Of a stretch of 48,701 nt of DNA, positions 321 through 43,952 are shown piece after piece. Numbering within the stretch: the stretch's first letter is position 1; every line of letters starts with the position of its first letter. The position numbers were made by a program, and so were the translations under genes. The notes under the pieces were generated by a model. The model saw only the letters and a program-made list of their open reading frames with translations, did no database searches and was not told the DNA's origin. Source of the stretch: Eubacterium sp. (GTDB lineage: Bacteria > Bacillota > Clostridia > Lachnospirales > Lachnospiraceae). The stretch is taken from assembly GCA_016280325.1 (NCBI GenBank), contig JAEEGM010000008.1, forward strand, positions 1-48,701. Reading direction: 5' to 3'.

Positions 321-355
321 AAAAGACTTTTAACCCAAGGGGTTAAAAGTCTTTT
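321..355. repeat. 16-bp perfect palindrome overlapping a stop codon
   Basis: AAAAGACTTTTAACCC (321-336) and its exact reverse complement (340-355) are separated by three bases. The right arm includes the last codons and stop of the minus-strand gene ending at 343. A partial third copy of the motif lies at 306-320 (GGGTTAAATAGTCTT). It may serve as a 3'-end stabiliser or terminator. Confidence 0.6.
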
Positions 356-1689
356 AATTCCTTTTCCAACAACTTCCACTCTTCATCTAACACCGCGTGT
401 CGGATACGCTCATATCTGGTTACGTGGATACCGGAGATCCGGTACTCACTCATTTCAGACAAAACCTCCAGACACGCGTCGTGATCTTTATCTTTGACTG
501 CGTTCTTCATGCGGTGATAATACTCGTTCAATTCTTTCTCCATGATCAGAGGACGGTTGTGAAGCACATCCGAAACTGTCTCATCCACCTGTGACAGGTA
601 ATGCATCGCGTCTTCGGATTCGCTGTCCGTCTCCGCGGTCAAAGCAGCCGCCGCTGTCAGCTGTTCCATCGGCGTCGGCTCTACGGCACGCATACCGGCC
701 GCCACGACATCCTCTTCCCGTATAACGATCTGCTCCGCTTCCACCAAGACAGGCTGAACCACCGGAATATCGAAAGTCTCCTCGGTACCTTCCTTCACGG
801 ACTCTTCCATAACCGGCTCCGCACTCTCGGAAACCGCCTTCAGATCATCGTCCAGCGAAAGCTTCTGCTTATTCTTCTTTGCTTTTTCATCCGCGCGTAT
901 CATCTGCTCCAGTTCAGGCAACAGCGCTGTCTCCTGCATACGATCTGTCACAATTACGGTGTGCAAAGACTTCTCTTCCTCTTCTTCTGCTTCTTCCTCA
1001 ACAGATTCCACACCGAAAAACCCTCTCTCCTGCAACCGTTCCAGTTCCTCATCCGATACATCCGTGATGATGATCTCGCCGCGTCCGTCCCAGGACATGG
1101 CGATCACAAGAAGCAGGACCAAAACCATAAGCGGTATTGTCGTGATATGCAATACCGAATTCATCACAAAAACAGCCACGCACCCGACCATCGCCGCGAG
1201 CGTTCCGATTCGAAGCCCCCGATCCAATTTTTCATAAAACCATATCGTCATAAAGAACAAAACCAGGGCGTATAGTAACGGCATATATTTTAATACCGCA
1301 GCAGCAAATCCTCCGCGAATCACGATCGTTGCCACAAGCAGAGCCACGCCCGGCAGCTGCAACAACACACCGCTTCCGACACGGATTTCCGTCCGGGTTC
1401 TGAACCACATAATATCAAACGCCACCTGCAGCACACCGATCACACCGGCCAGGTAGATAAAGATATAGAGCATCCCCACACCGTTCAGTGATCTCAACGC
1501 GATATTTGCCGGCTCGCCGATCTCTGTACGAAGCACACCGTCACTGATCAGGTGCATCAATGCAAAGGCCAACAAACACATAAACAGGCCGCGTCCCTGC
1601 ATTTTTCTCGCAGGCACCGCATAGTATCCCCAAGCTGTCACCAACAGGATAAGCACACCTACAACTGAGATGGTTGCGTTTGTTATCAT
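343..1689 (-). CDS. Polytopic membrane protein with long acidic cytoplasmic tail, function unknown
   Basis: This 448-residue protein is not recognised. Residues 1-205 hold about seven hydrophobic segments. The rest is soluble and strongly acidic, with a run of glutamates near residue 230 (VEEEAEEEEEK) and many Glu/Asp/Lys, probably cytoplasmic. The last 75 residues look helical. The start codon overlaps the stop of the FolB-FolK gene by four bases (ATGA), so the two are probably translationally coupled, but nothing in the protein itself suggests a folate role. The end of the gene is folded into a perfect palindrome. Confidence 0.85.
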   Translation of the reverse strand: MITNATISVVGVLILLVTAWGYYAVPARKMQGRGLFMCLLAFALMHLISDGVLRTEIGEPANIALRSLNGVGMLYIFIYLAGVIGVLQVAFDIMWFRTRTEIRVGSGVLLQLPGVALLVATIVIRGGFAAAVLKYMPLLYALVLFFMTIWFYEKLDRGLRIGTLAAMVGCVAVFVMNSVLHITTIPLMVLVLLLVIAMSWDGRGEIIITDVSDEELERLQERGFFGVESVEEEAEEEEEKSLHTVIVTDRMQETALLPELEQMIRADEKAKKNKQKLSLDDDLKAVSESAEPVMEESVKEGTEETFDIPVVQPVLVEAEQIVIREEDVVAAGMRAVEPTPMEQLTAAAALTAETDSESEDAMHYLSQVDETVSDVLHNRPLIMEKELNEYYHRMKNAVKDKDHDACLEVLSEMSEYRISGIHVTRYERIRHAVLDEEWKLLEKELKDF

Positions 1690-14101: not shown

Positions 14102-15760
14102 TTACTTCAGGATCGCTCCGTTACTGCCGGAGGTCACCATATTCGCATACCGGGCGAGATACCCGTCCTTTACACGCGGCTCTCTCGGTGTCCATGCCGC
14201 CCGTCTTTTCTCCATTTCCTCATCCGACACCTTGACATTCAGGGTGTTGGCCGGAATATCCACTGCGATGATATCGCCTTCCTCGATCAAAGCGATCGGT
14301 CCGCCGACAGCTGCCTCCGGTGAGATATGTCCGATGGACGCACCACGGCTTGCTCCGGAGAATCGTCCGTCCGTGATCAGAGCAACGGATGAGCCAAGCC
14401 CCATTCCGGCAATAGCCGATGTCGGGTTCAGCATCTCACGCATACCCGGACCACCCTTCGGTCCCTCATAACGAATGACAACCACATCGCCCTCTACGAT
14501 CTTACCACCCTTGATAGCAGCGATCGCATCCTCCTCGCAATCAAAGACGCGAGCCGGGCCTTCGTGTACCATCATCTCCGGTACCACAGCGGAACGCTTC
14601 ACGACACCTCCGTCCGGCGCAATGTTACCCTTCAATACGGCGATACCGCCGGTCTCACTGTACGGATTGTCGATCGGACGGATCACCTCCGGATCAAGGT
14701 TGATCGCATTCTGTATGTTCTCCTTAACGGTCTTTCCGGTTACCGTCATACAATCGGTATTCAGAAGTCCCTTCTTATCAAGCTCATTCATCACCGCGTA
14801 TACACCGCCGGCTTCATTCAACTGTTCCATATACGTGTGTCCGGCCGGTGCCAGGTGACACAGATTCGGCGTCTTGGCACTGATATCGTTGGCGATGTCG
14901 AGGTTCAGATCCACGCCTGCCTCATGCGCGATTGCCGGCAAATGCAACATCGTATTGGTCGAGCATCCGAGTGCCATATCCACGGTCATCGCGTTCTGAA
15001 ACGCTTTCTCAGTCATGATATCACGCGGGCGGATATTTTTCTTAAGCATATCCATCACGGCCATACCGGCATGCTTAGCGAGTTTGATTCGATCCGAATA
15101 TACGGCCGGGATCGTTCCGTTGCCGCGAAGTCCCATACCGATCGCTTCGGTCAGGCAGTTCATCGAGTTCGCGGTGTACATACCGGAACAGGATCCGCAG
15201 GTCGGACATGCGTGCTGTACGAAATCGTCCACCTGCTCCTCGGTCATCTTGCCTGCCGCGTGCGCTCCGACTGCCTCAAACATACTGGACAGTGAAGTAC
15301 GCTTGCCCTGAACATGTCCGGCCAGCATCGGTCCACCGCTGACAAACACCGTCGGCACATTGACGCGGGCTGCCGCCATCAGAAGGCCGGGTACATTTTT
15401 ATCACAGTTCGGTACCATCACCAACGCGTCGAAGGCGTGGGCTCTTGCCATACACTCCGTGGAGTCGGCGATGAGGTCGCGGGTTACGAGGGAATACTTC
15501 ATTCCGACGTGTCCCATGGCGATTCCGTCACAGACCGCGATCGCCGGGAAGACGATCGGTGTACCGCCCGCCATGGCAACTCCCTGCTTGACGGCCTCGA
15601 CGATCTTGTCGATATTCATATGTCCCGGCACGATCTCGTTGTAGGAGCTGACGATTCCGACGAGCGGACGTTCGAGTTCCTCCTTGGTCAGGCCGAGTGC
15701 GTTAAAAAGGCTCCGCTGCGGCGCGGTGGCCATGCCTTGCTTTACACTGTCACTATTCAT
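14102..15760 (-). CDS. ilvD: Dihydroxy-acid dehydratase
   Basis: An Fe-S enzyme of 552 residues that dehydrates 2,3-dihydroxy-isovalerate or -methylvalerate to the 2-oxo acids in valine and isoleucine synthesis. Cluster ligands are visible in [15 protein letters not shown] and [19 protein letters not shown]. The C-terminal signature is [11 protein letters not shown] followed by [15 protein letters not shown]. It has a strong ribosome binding site (CAGGAGG). It is separated from leuB by 176 bases, most of which is a long palindromic repeat element. Confidence 0.97.
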
Positions 15761-15800
15761 AAGTTTATCCTCCTGATTTTATTTACGGGGATTCGTATCC

Positions 15801-15925
15801 GGCCGTTTGTTTTTTGTTCGGGACTACGCTTTCGCCATTCCCGAACGCAACGGTGCATGGCTCGAAAAATCCTCGCCTACGCACCGGCGTTCGCGACAGG
15901 TCCCTCACAGAAAAATCAAACGGCC
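15801..15925. repeat. Long palindromic repeat element, copy A (between leuB and ilvD)
   Basis: The outer arms GGCCGTTTG (15801-15809) and CAAACGGCC (15917-15925) enclose nested complementary blocks: GGGAC (15820-15824) with GTCCC (15900-15904), and CGAACGC...CGGTGC (15842-15856) with GCACCG...CGTTCG (15881-15893). The core in minus-strand orientation (about 15908 to 15820) is closely related to the plus-strand core at 42075-42188: both have TGAGGGACC - 4 bases - GCGAACG at one end and GCGTTCGG, TGGCG, AAGCG and AGTCCC at the other. It sits 12 bases past the leuB stop and could act in the mRNA as an attenuator or stabiliser. No U-run follows. Confidence 0.85.
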
Positions 15926-15936
15926 CGACAATTCCT

Positions 15937-17022
15937 CTATTTTATTTTGGAAACAATAATATCTCCCATCTCGATGCATCCGACTTTATTGGTGCCCTCG
16001 CTGTAGATGTCACCGGTACGGTAGCCGTCGGCGAGGACTTCTTTAACCGCGTCTTCTACGGCATCGGCTTCTGCCTGCAGATCGAACGAGTAGCGAAGCA
16101 TCATCGCTACCGAAAGGATTGTCGCAATCGGGTTCGCCTTGTCCTGCCCCGCGATATCCGGTGCGGATCCGTGACTCGGCTCATACAGTCCGAAAGACCC
16201 TTCGGCGAGTGATGCCGACGGAAGCATGCCGAGTGAGCCTGTGGTCATCGATGCCTCATCCGAGAGGATATCGCCGAACATGTTCTCCGTCACGACGACA
16301 TCGAACTGTTTCGGATCGCTGACCAGTTCCATCGCGCAGGCATCCACCAACATATCGGACAGTTCCACATCCTGATAGTCCTTTGCCACTTCTGCGACTA
16401 CCTTACGCCACAGGCGGGAGGAGTCGAGAACGTTGGCCTTATCCACACTGCATACCTTTTTATTTCTCTTCTGCGCGATCTCAAACGCTTTTTTCGCGAT
16501 ACGGCGAATCTCAGACTCCGCATAAATCAGTGTATCCACCGCGGTCATCTCGCCGTTAATCTCCTTCGTATATCGATAACCGAAGTAAAGGCCTCCGGTG
16601 AGTTCACGTACGATCACATAATCGAAGCCGCCCTGTGAGCGGTCGCTCTTCAGCGGGCAGGCACCTTCCAATTCCTTAAAAAGAATCGCCGGACGCAGGT
16701 TGCAGAACAGCCCCAGTCCCTTACGAATCTTCAGAAGGCCGGCCTCCGGGCGCTTCTCCGGCGGCAGCTCATACCAGCTGTCCACACCGACTCTTCCACC
16801 AACCGCGCCAAGCAGTACCGCATCCGCCGCCTTGGCACGCTCCAATGTCTCATCTGTCAACGGATCACCAAACTTGTCGATCGAGCAACCTCCCATGTAA
16901 AGTTCCTCATACTCGAACTCATGTCCGTATACCTCTCCGATTCTGTCAAGAACCTTCTTCGCCTCACGTACGATCTCCGGTCCGATTCCGTCTCCCGGAA
17001 TCACCGCAATATGGTATTTCAT
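15937..17022 (-). CDS. leuB: 3-isopropylmalate dehydrogenase
   Basis: An NAD-dependent oxidative decarboxylase of the leucine pathway, 361 residues. Motifs seen are [25 protein letters not shown] and [19 protein letters not shown], with the usual substrate Arg, Lys and Asp residues, then [14 protein letters not shown]. It is the first gene of the leuB-ilvD-ilvB-serC-serA-folC operon, with its own consensus promoter at 17080-17108 and a leader of only about 50 bases. There is no room for a T-box or leader-peptide attenuator. leuA, leuC, leuD and ilvC are not in the window. Confidence 0.97.
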
Positions 17023-22488: not shown

Positions 22489-22509
22489 TTATAAACTGAA
22501 ATATAAAAA

Positions 22510-22548
22510 AATAAGCGCGAGCGCACACCGCTCGCGCTTATTTTTTTA
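22510..22548. terminator. Bidirectional terminator between convergent genes
   Basis: The perfect 14-bp arms AATAAGCGCGAGCG and CGCTCGCGCTTATT are separated by CACAC, with A-run before and T-run after. It serves the plus-strand CapA-like gene and the minus-strand exporter gene that ends at 22562. Confidence 0.95.
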
Positions 22549-22561
22549 TCTGATCCTTTTT

Positions 22562-41948: not shown

Positions 41949-42053
41949 ATAATCTATCAATTCTCAAAGGTTTTTTACTCGCAGCAGTACTATTATATCA
42001 CAATTCTCCGATAAATCAACCGCTAGATGTAGGTTTTGATACGCATAAAAAGA

Positions 42054-42207
42054 GGCATTTGGTAAATATATCCGGTGAGGGACCTTTTGCGAACGACACT
42101 GCGCAGCGCGCGTATAAGCGACGCGAAGCGTCGGTATTCGCACGCGTGCAGTGCTGCGTTCGGAACTGGCGCAAGCGCAGTCCCTCACGGATATATAACC
42201 AAATGCC
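42054..42207. repeat. Long palindromic repeat element, copy B (downstream of fakA)
   Basis: The arms GGCATTTGGT-AA-ATATATCC-G-GTGAGGGAC (42054-42083) and GTCCCTCAC-GGATATAT-A-ACCAAATGCC (42180-42207) are complementary apart from small bulges. Inside are GCGAACG/CGTTCG, CACTGC/GCAGTG and CGACGC-GAA-GCGTCG hairpins. The core 42075-42188 matches the core of the element at 15801-15925. On the minus strand the outer stem extends to GAGGCATTTGGT...ACCAAATGCCTC and is followed by TTTTT, so it may also terminate fakA. It fills most of the 321-base gap between fakA and the AraC-type gene. Confidence 0.88.
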
Positions 42208-42227
42208 TCGGCTATAATTCCAAAACC

Positions 42228-43952
42228 TTATTCCACCGATATAAAATAATAGTAAATCGGCTGGCCTCCGAATTGTATTTCAAAATCAACGTCGAGCCTC
42301 TCAAGGCCGATCTTCGAAGCGATCTTCGCCGCCTGCTCTTCGTCCGCTCCCTCTCCGTAGTAGAGGGTAACGAGTTCGGATTCATCGGTAAGCATCGAAC
42401 GGATCAGATCCACGGTCGTATCCACGATATCCGTGCCGACCGCCTCGATCTTCTTGCCGCAGATACCCATGATATCACCGTTTTTGATTTCCTTGCCGTC
42501 AACCGTCGTATCGCGAACCGCGTATGTCACCTCGCCCTCGCGAATCTCAGTGATCGACTCATTCATCGACGCTTCGTTATCTTCGGCTTCCACCCCGTCG
42601 ATGAAACCGAGCATCGCCGCGATACCCTGCGGGATATTTTTCGACTGGATCACGTGAACATCCTGATTCTTCGCCATGCTCTTCGCCTGGTTGGCAGCCA
42701 AAAGGATATTGCCGTTATTCGGAAGGATGAAGATGTGGTCCGCATCCAACCGGTCGATCGCCGTCAGGATATCCTCCGTACTGGGGTTCATCGTCTGACC
42801 GCCCTCGATGATGATATCCACACCGAGATCACGGAAAATATCACTGATTCCCTCACCGGCCGATACACTGATGAAAGCGTTCTCCTTGTGCGGGAACTTC
42901 TCCGGTTCCTTCGGTGCCTTCGCCGCGTCCGCAGCCGCCTGCTCGGCAGCAACCTTCTCTGCGTTCTGGATGACACGCTCATGGTGCTCCTGACGCATGT
43001 TATCAATCTTCATACGTGTCAGCTGACCGTATGTCAATGCACGCTGGATAGCAAGTCCGGGATCGTTGGTGTGGACGTGAACCTTGACCACCTCATCATC
43101 CGCCACGCAGACGATGGAATCTCCGATCGAACTCAAAAATCCTTTGAAATCATGCTCCATATCATCCGTAAACTCATTCTCAAGCATGATGATAAATTCT
43201 GTACAATAGCCGAACTTGATATCGGCATCGGCAACTACATTCGCATCGGCGCGAAGCGATCCGGTCATCTCTCCGGCTCCCGCCTGATGATTCACGGTAC
43301 CGGCTGTCTCGTCGATATCGGTATCCACCTCACGACCGAGCAGGACATCATAGCATCCCTGCAGGAAGTACAGCAGGCCCTGGCCGCCGGAATCCACTAC
43401 CCCGGCTTCCTTCAGCACCGGAAGCATATCCGGTGTCTGCTCAAGCACATCTTCCATATGGATCAAAACGGCATTGACCATCTCCACGAGATTGTCCGTT
43501 GTCTCTACCATCTCAAAAGCCTTCTCGGCGCCCCCTCTGGCCACCGTGAGGATCGTTCCCTCCTTCGGCTTCATAACTGCCTTGTAGGCCTGTCCGACCG
43601 CACGCTCAAATGCCGCCTGCAGGATCGGCACATCCACTTCCTTCACATCCTGGATCCCCTTGGTAAAACCACGCAAAAGCTGGGACAGGATAACACCGGA
43701 GTTTCCACGCGCGCCCTTAAGCGAGCCACCGGAGATTGCCTTGCAAAGCGTCTTCATGTCCGGCTCTTCCGGTAACGCGGCCACTTCACGCGCCGCGGAC
43801 ATGATCGTCATGGTCATATTGGTTCCGGTATCACCATCCGGCACCGGGAACACGTTTAACTCATTGACTATTTCTTTATTGGCATCCAACGCCTTCGCAC
43901 CGGCCAGAAAACACCGGCGAATCACGGAAGCGTCTATCGTCTGGATCAGCAT
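42228..43952 (-). CDS. fakA: DAK2/DegV-type protein, fatty acid kinase catalytic subunit FakA (YloV)
   Basis: A 574-residue protein. The N-terminal DhaL/DAK2 kinase domain carries the Mg-ATP Asp cluster in LNVFPVPDGDTGTNMTMTI (about 32-50) and GARGNSGVILSQLLRGF. The middle and C-terminal FakA domains follow (PDMLPVLKEAGVVDSGGQGL and the EGGQTMNPSTEDIL stretch). FakA phosphorylates fatty acids bound by a FakB partner. Upstream order rpmB-asp23-fakA is the conserved Firmicute arrangement (rpmB-yloU-yloV); the recG often found further along is absent, and a palindromic repeat element follows instead. Confidence 0.94.
   Translation of the reverse strand: MLIQTIDASVIRRCFLAGAKALDANKEIVNELNVFPVPDGDTGTNMTMTIMSAAREVAALPEEPDMKTLCKAISGGSLKGARGNSGVILSQLLRGFTKGIQDVKEVDVPILQAAFERAVGQAYKAVMKPKEGTILTVARGGAEKAFEMVETTDNLVEMVNAVLIHMEDVLEQTPDMLPVLKEAGVVDSGGQGLLYFLQGCYDVLLGREVDTDIDETAGTVNHQAGAGEMTGSLRADANVVADADIKFGYCTEFIIMLENEFTDDMEHDFKGFLSSIGDSIVCVADDEVVKVHVHTNDPGLAIQRALTYGQLTRMKIDNMRQEHHERVIQNAEKVAAEQAAADAAKAPKEPEKFPHKENAFISVSAGEGISDIFRDLGVDIIIEGGQTMNPSTEDILTAIDRLDADHIFILPNNGNILLAANQAKSMAKNQDVHVIQSKNIPQGIAAMLGFIDGVEAEDNEASMNESITEIREGEVTYAVRDTTVDGKEIKNGDIMGICGKKIEAVGTDIVDTTVDLIRSMLTDESELVTLYYGEGADEEQAAKIASKIGLERLDVDFEIQFGGQPIYYYFISVE

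Follow-up and report, generated by a model that had tools for sequence, protein, structure and literature searches.

Two long palindromes of a Eubacterium contig as probable members of a small foldback mobile family of the Lachnospiraceae

The window analyzed here, a stretch of 48,701 nucleotides from Eubacterium sp., harbors two long palindromic sequences, copy A and copy B, in which a similar core is enclosed by outer stems of unrelated sequence. The question raised by this locus is how one core came to lie within stems that differ in sequence and pair with themselves. The sequence-only reading had offered two answers, either that RNA structure is under selection or that the core enters hairpins already in place, at their tip. 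The present analysis showed that the two copies are ordinary residents of a real and widespread mobile hairpin family. With a probability of roughly 0.6, they are resident members of a small, non-coding, foldback mobile family distributed across the Lachnospiraceae, the private stems being the element's own diverging arms. The best reading is that of a MITE-like foldback element located just behind stop codons, mostly in antisense orientation, and neither of the two earlier answers fits as well as a mobile foldback element that has arms of its own.

The coordinates of the two copies and of the adjoining genes are given in Table 1. The shared core blocks occur in the same order in both copies, as borne out by alignment A1, and the outer arms are unlike between the copies yet self-complementary in each, as had been noticed from the letters. 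The inverted-repeat arms of copy A (15798-15815 / 15911-15928) are 89% complementary. RNA folding was compared with dinucleotide shuffles, and 0 of 200 shuffles folded as well as either copy; copy A folded as DNA gave a z of -6.5. None of the Rfam 15 covariance models covered copy A or copy B, and a covariance-model search of the rest of the window gave no match beyond these two (next-best E of 0.14). Two other inverted repeats were seen in the window. A perfect 21-bp repeat with a 5-nt loop lies between convergent ORFs at 22503-22549, with A-rich sequence before and T-rich sequence after it; it looks like a bidirectional terminator and gave weak matches to sRNA families. A perfect 18-bp repeat with a 3-nt loop lies at 319-357, at the 3' end of an ORF at 343-1689 (minus).

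Table 1. Copies A and B, their parts and the neighboring genes, in window positions
Feature	Position	Strand	Details
Copy A core, structured tip	15815..15909	minus	R1 107.6 bits, R2 99.1 bits; alignment A1; fold z -7.4
Copy A core parts			P1 GGGAC/GTCCC, P2, P3, variable P4, 3'-side GNRA mini-hairpin GC-GAAA-GC
Copy A distal outer arm	15798..15814	minus	GGCCGTTTG at 15801-15809 plus A/T extension
Copy A proximal outer arm	15910..15928	minus	CAAACGGCC at 15917-15925; starts ~11 nt past leuB stop codon
leuB	15937-17022	minus	Upstream of copy A; NCBIfam TIGR00169 above cut-off
ilvD	14102-15760	minus	Next gene past copy A; NCBIfam TIGR00110 above cut-off
Copy B core with enlarged P4 tip	42074..42188	plus	R1 79.8 bits, R2 72.1 bits; fold z -9.4
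Copy B outer arm distal to upstream gene	42052..42073	plus	GAGGCATTTGGTAAATATATCC
Copy B outer arm near gene	~42190..42209	plus	18 nt past stop codon of YloV-family gene
YloV-family gene	42228-43952	minus	TIGR03599 above cut-off; precedes copy B
TTTTT, terminator-like U tract on gene strand	42047..42051	minus	Directly past copy B distal arm; tail TTTTTATGCG

The palindrome is dispersed in its own genome and among related bacteria. A covariance model built from 12 copies (R1) gave 24 matches in the own genome, where a DNA search gave 13, one of them partial. In the genus, 19 of 39 genomes matched R1, with up to 64 copies per genome. In the family Lachnospiraceae, at least 97 of 397 genomes and at least 86 of 334 genera matched R2, both figures being lower bounds obtained at E ≤1e-4 with strict filters and at most 10 candidates scored per genome. 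A class-wide sample of 391 genomes contained nine matching genomes, all nine from Lachnospiraceae. Among named records, the genus-type core was present in 29 stretches titled Lachnospiraceae, 'Eubacterium sp.' or Clostridiales, several of them from the rumen, and strain P6B14 was represented. Plasmids gave no match by blastn, viral contigs held no exact match to two consensus patterns, and copy A had no match in phages; L274 showed two weak partial matches to unannotated fecal contigs labelled phage. The Lachnospiraceae are common gut and rumen bacteria, and a mobile hairpin present in about a quarter of the sampled genomes of the family would matter for annotation, for the evolution of gene 3' ends and for the origin and upkeep of long perfect stems.

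Read 5' to 3' on the core strand, the element comprises an outer arm, often a tandem GA opposite GA, then P1, P2, P3, P4 and a mini-hairpin on the 3' side. P1 is GGGAC/GTCCC and P2 is GCGAACG/CGTTCGG, with many variants of the former and variants of the latter, and P4 is variable with a T-rich loop. A G.T pair in P3 is near-invariant within the genus (G.T or T.G in 95 of 117). The mini-hairpin is found on the 3' side only and consists of two pairs closing a GNRA loop, which was present in 115 of 117 distinct copies (GCAA 76, GAAA 21, GCGA 12, GGAA 4, GTAA 1, GAGA 1, others 2) and in 34 of 35 distinct rows drawn nearly all from other genera. Covariation exceeded that of shuffled alignments at each depth: in the 12 copies, two-sided change affected 59 cells as compared with 19.7 after shuffling; the corresponding figures were 787 against 229 (score 0.649 vs 0.206) for 93 distinct rows in which two wrong-strand rows were still included, and 345 against 94 (score 0.761 vs 0.205) for 35 distinct rows. 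Alignments A2, A3 and A5 were fitted to the model structure, which favors that structure; A1 was free of such fitting, although the copies it contains also supplied its structure. The reverse-strand matches L010:1487 and L011:1516, still in A2 for covariation and arm scoring, were excluded from later counts. The P4 loop carries an extra hairpin (e.g., GAAACTC...GAGTTTC) in L101, L104, L094, L117 and the window (42100-42150), a module gained at the very tip. Also, a core variant with an additional hairpin of ~85 nt on the 5' side was present at three loci of genome G022 (L042, L044 and L045), and hence this variant has itself spread.

The outer arms were found to pair in nearly all copies. Nineteen of the 24 own-genome copies were read, and 18 of them had pairing arms with a stem-extension score of at least 10; neither of the outcomes that the sequence-only reading had named as refuting, a lack of further copies or arms without pairing, was thus obtained. 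The sole own-genome failure, L009, contained extra hairpins in its 3' half by inspection. Across all genomes, 91 of 105 copies reached a score of at least 10 compared with 3 of 104 mismatched left/right controls, 95 of which scored below 4; the 14 copies scoring below 10 include the two wrong-strand matches and some that are cut by contig ends or bear insertions. The arms of the 18 own-genome copies were all different from each other by inspection, and with such private arms no recent movement is visible in the own genome. One own-genome copy (L092) has arms in common with a copy of genome G002 (L122), their cores being closely similar. Elsewhere, arms are common within subfamilies, for example the GGCCACAATAGGGCAGG and GCAGCCATACGGAG groups of G011 and G002. 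At two loci of G002 (L118 and L117), a single core is flanked by several successive left arms or several successive right arms, a pattern suggestive of repeated nesting or duplication of hairpins. The proximal arm enters the 3' end of the upstream ORF at seven loci (L016, L024, L028, L099, L100, L112 and L249), so that part of the stem is coding there.

Whether the outer stem exists in relatives lacking the core was examined at both loci of the window. Between leuB and ilvD, hairpins occur in G000, G008, G048, G043 and G022, and their arms are unrelated. By inspection, two of these hairpins (G043 and G022) have diverged tips, and both R1 and R2 fail on that of G022. Genome G012 retains a core remnant. 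The site in G011, a genome closely related to G048 (97% across 1,499 bp at another place), has the appearance of a deletion derivative. In seven relatives without the core (G002, G010, G007, G047, G041, G023 and G046), the spacer measures 16-69 bp and contains no stem of this kind. The outer stem of copy A is therefore absent from core-less relatives, and hence the arms probably belong to the element itself. Past the YloV gene, inspection of predicted folds showed a tipped hairpin followed by T-rich sequence in G000, G012 and G043, and a plain terminator-like hairpin without the core in G010, G011 and G048; the other ten genomes had no obvious equivalent. R2 matched the tip at this locus in G012 and did not match in G043. 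Each of the two readings, arms of the element or stems of the host, thus has one locus in its favor, and that of copy A is the clearer.

The second reading holds that only the core is mobile, entering existing hairpins (intrinsic terminators, for instance, or other elements) at their tips, and that the outer stems are terminators of the host. The plain hairpins at the YloV locus are in agreement with it, and so are several arrangements in other genomes. In G022, closely similar outer arms surround four different cores. In L136 and L137, the arms of one element enclose another that is complete; the same arms also occur, at three loci, as short forms without a core. The orthologs L028 and L154 keep their outermost arms and differ at 25 of 95 core positions. 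Against this part of the sequence-only reading stand the short leuB-ilvD spacers and the recent copies described below, which bring their arms along; moreover, the loci compared included no clean case of an empty hairpin whose arms could be aligned. Tip insertion is supported in part and is considered unlikely as the general explanation. A related view is comparably doubtful: the folded tip would be the true selfish unit, its compact fold with the GNRA mini-hairpin being recognized by a non-HUH enzyme, and it would sit on any pair of arms, be swapped between them and be nested tip in tip, the private arms being perfected or re-perfected in DNA by inverted copying from one side.

The preferred reading, a mobile element with its own arms, draws on copies in which core and arms recur together. 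One identical core was present at eight loci in G022, six of which have exactly the same right arm and the same left arm save the outermost base, the remaining two having a second arm type. Seven near-identical copies with unrelated outer flanks were found in G091, and three copies with an identical core, closely similar arms and unrelated outer flanks in G173. Recent copies with the same core and arms are thus observed at unrelated loci. Units with inverted ends were also observed. Loci C46 and C5 of G022 share a unit of ~440 bp (length in C46) with inverted ends AAAATGATTATTTAG / CTAAATAATCATTTT and unrelated flanks, the C5 copy being without the tip, and the seven G091 copies are near-identical units of ~490 bp with inverted ends of the AACTGCAGTTTAAA type, one of them (L281) with an internal deletion. 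The combination of terminal inverted repeats and unrelated flanks that characterizes MITEs was thus found in G091 (seven copies) and in C46/C5 of G022, and not in the own-genome copies. The one long G091 unit tested (L276) contains two cores in inverted order. A whole-unit search of G091 gave 7 long and 33 shorter or partial places among the 40 of 83 candidates scored, and no copy split around an ORF was recognized in the pieces inspected. By inspection, TA stands at both ends of the G091 copies and of one G022 copy, as it would in a target-site duplication, although it could also be part of the inverted repeat; in the second G022 copy, TG is found at one end. L013 was considered as an autonomous copy with an ORF in or beside the core and was rejected, since what lies there between two long ORFs is a degenerate 3' half.

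Several apparent empty sites weigh against the element reading, since they are, or may be, deletions of older copies. Three sites considered as proof of insertion (C17 of G048 compared with L097, the leuB-ilvD locus of G011, and C5 of G022) are better read as deletions or are indistinguishable from them, and the same holds for G048 compared with L099 and with L122. The cleanest present/absent pair, L110 of G002 and L168 of G048, cannot be polarized.

The position of the copies relative to genes was evaluated with genes called by a simple longest-ORF rule. Among 132 copies, 120 had genes on both sides, of which 89 pairs were codirectional, 25 convergent and 6 divergent, compared with 132, 29 and 51 in a set of 212 intergenic regions of at least 120 bp from G048 stretches. 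Another overlap rule on a smaller set gave 1 divergent in 73, and the larger count of 120 copies was used. Relative to the nearest gene upstream, 78 of 119 copies had an antisense core and 41 a sense core; the median distance to the stop codon was 38.5 nt in the former and 72 nt in the latter. These counts include orthologous copies, so the events are not independent, and copies of the same lineage lead the counts to overstate the events. The position past stop codons is plain in these data. Copy B resembles an intrinsic terminator in its place past a stop codon and in the TTTTT that comes next on the gene strand. The family differs from such terminators: of the 86 copies that had an arm score of at least 7 and a stop codon no more than 120 nt away, just 9 carried TTTT within 10 nt past the distal arm, and the tip of the element is far larger. 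A general role as terminator was rejected on this count, the U tract at copy B notwithstanding. The rarity of the T run also speaks against host terminators as the source of the outer stems.

The other answer of the sequence-only reading invoked RNA structure. In the form evaluated here, a structured RNA, in a 3' UTR or as an antisense RNA, would be selected for its fold and spread by duplication, and the compensatory changes would reflect RNA function. The GNRA loop, the near-invariant G.U pair of the genus and the location after stop codons accord with it. So do four ortholog pairs with 0 (L095/L178, L145/L147) or 1 (L100/L190, L123/L176) core change in surroundings 86-94% identical, which suggests constraint; five others (L028/L154, L101/L225, L107/L182, L117/L217 and L022/L184) were much changed. 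The excess of copies antisense to the preceding gene points the other way, as does the absence of an Rfam family covering a core in the further copies tested, aside from one sub-threshold overlap (mir-71, 23.9 bits vs a gathering threshold of 50).

The mismatches within stems bear directly on the choice between DNA and RNA. Outside the conserved G.T and loosely paired positions, G.T was found in 35 and A.C in 34 of 3,682 cells, and over all pairs of alignment A5 the figures were 20 and 18 of 1,182 cells. In 16 tRNAs of the same sequence set, 25 G.U and 0 A.C occurred in 345 pairs as found by ARAGORN, a finder that itself favors G.U. In copies differing at 1 or 2 pairs, 24 of 35 changes were two-sided. 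Such strand-symmetric mismatches together with dominant two-sided changes are not the usual RNA pattern, and they suggest that the stems are maintained at the DNA level. RNA selection as the sole cause is weakened by the equal rarity of G.T and A.C. It was kept as a rival given the closest comparisons (≤3 changed pairs), in which the one-sided changes were 19 G.T, 0 A.C and 3 other; this lowest-divergence excess leans toward an RNA constraint on the core strand and, with the GNRA loop, stands against a pure DNA view. Thus, the RNA part of the sequence-only reading retains the loop, the G.U pair and the low-divergence lean and loses ground on the symmetry of mismatches and the dominance of two-sided changes, and as an account of the family it is rated quite unlikely.

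The arms could be followed where cores are nearly the same. In 39 comparisons with near-identical cores, 47 of the arm changes were one-sided and 26 two-sided, and 22 of the latter pair. In the pair L270/L282, the 96-nt cores are identical and the arms differ by five two-sided changes, all pairing, and one one-sided change. These changes fit arm-to-arm copying in DNA beside ordinary mutation; arm copying is not the sole process, as one-sided changes outnumber two-sided ones. Template-switch mutation in hairpins, according to PMC8794818, predicts multi-base compensatory changes and perfect stems arising in one step. Unlike the family described here, that process is a mutation mechanism and not an element family. 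Identical tips with differing but paired arms, as in L270/L282, provide a natural setting for telling template switching apart from slow compensatory evolution.

Similar to bacterial MITEs and foldback elements, the element is small, non-coding, intergenic and dispersed, with inverted ends in the G022 and G091 units; unlike them, it has a conserved folded tip across 86 genera, its arms and ends vary between lineages, and no autonomous partner was recognized among the G091 candidates scored. The REP/BIME palindromes associated with RAYT are palindromic sequences found at gene 3' ends and in inverted pairs. The present element shares these features and is intergenic and strand-asymmetric: among 11 close core pairs of the genus, one is plus-plus and the other 10 are inverted, each with the minus core first. 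One could therefore consider a REP/BIME-type element whose mobility depends on a Y1 (HUH) transposase, RAYT or IS200 TnpA for example (cf. PMC3733652 and PMC2817692). The Y1 transposase domain PF01797 was present in three of seven lower-copy carriers (G041, G046 and G014) and in 10 of 39 genus genomes overall. It was absent from all 12 genus genomes with at least five R1 matches, some of them incomplete (G000, G002, G007, G008, G009, G010, G011, G012, G022, G023, G043 and G048), on which ground RAYT/IS200 mobilization was rejected for the higher-copy genomes and is largely refuted in the genus. The unit, at 130-250 nt or more, is also far longer than REP, and this origin is regarded as highly improbable. 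In sponge mitochondria, repetitive hairpin-forming elements divergent in sequence invade intergenic regions (PMC2800124), which resembles the location and divergence of the present hairpins; these and the double-hairpin elements are organellar and serve as analogy only. The element was not described in the literature searched, including the accessible parts of PMC8794818, PMC2800124, PMC12306157 and PMC2267715, which is not proof that it is unpublished.

Under the preferred reading of a foldback element with its own arms, the arms of each unit would form a long inverted repeat, and the core would be the conserved, asymmetric folded tip that closes it. The whole palindrome could be moved by non-autonomous transposition, with an enzyme acting in trans and the core serving as the common cis signal for it. 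The arms would drift apart between loci and stay complementary if changes were copied from arm to arm in a DNA hairpin, possibly by template switching or conversion. Additional selection for a hairpin at gene 3' ends may also operate, and a copy may act as, or replace, a terminator, copy B being a candidate.

Two neighborhoods of individual copies were also recorded. Beside a copy of G011, a second repeated sequence (L097:1240-1486) has relatives in G048, G000 (C153 and C12), G008 and G010, and it sits within larger inverted flanks TTTGATTATTCAGTAGCAT / ATGCTACTGAATAATCAAA. In G091, one unit (L269:980-1770) lies just past a tmRNA gene (Rfam match at 980-1338), with its cores at 1390-1485 and 1672-1770.
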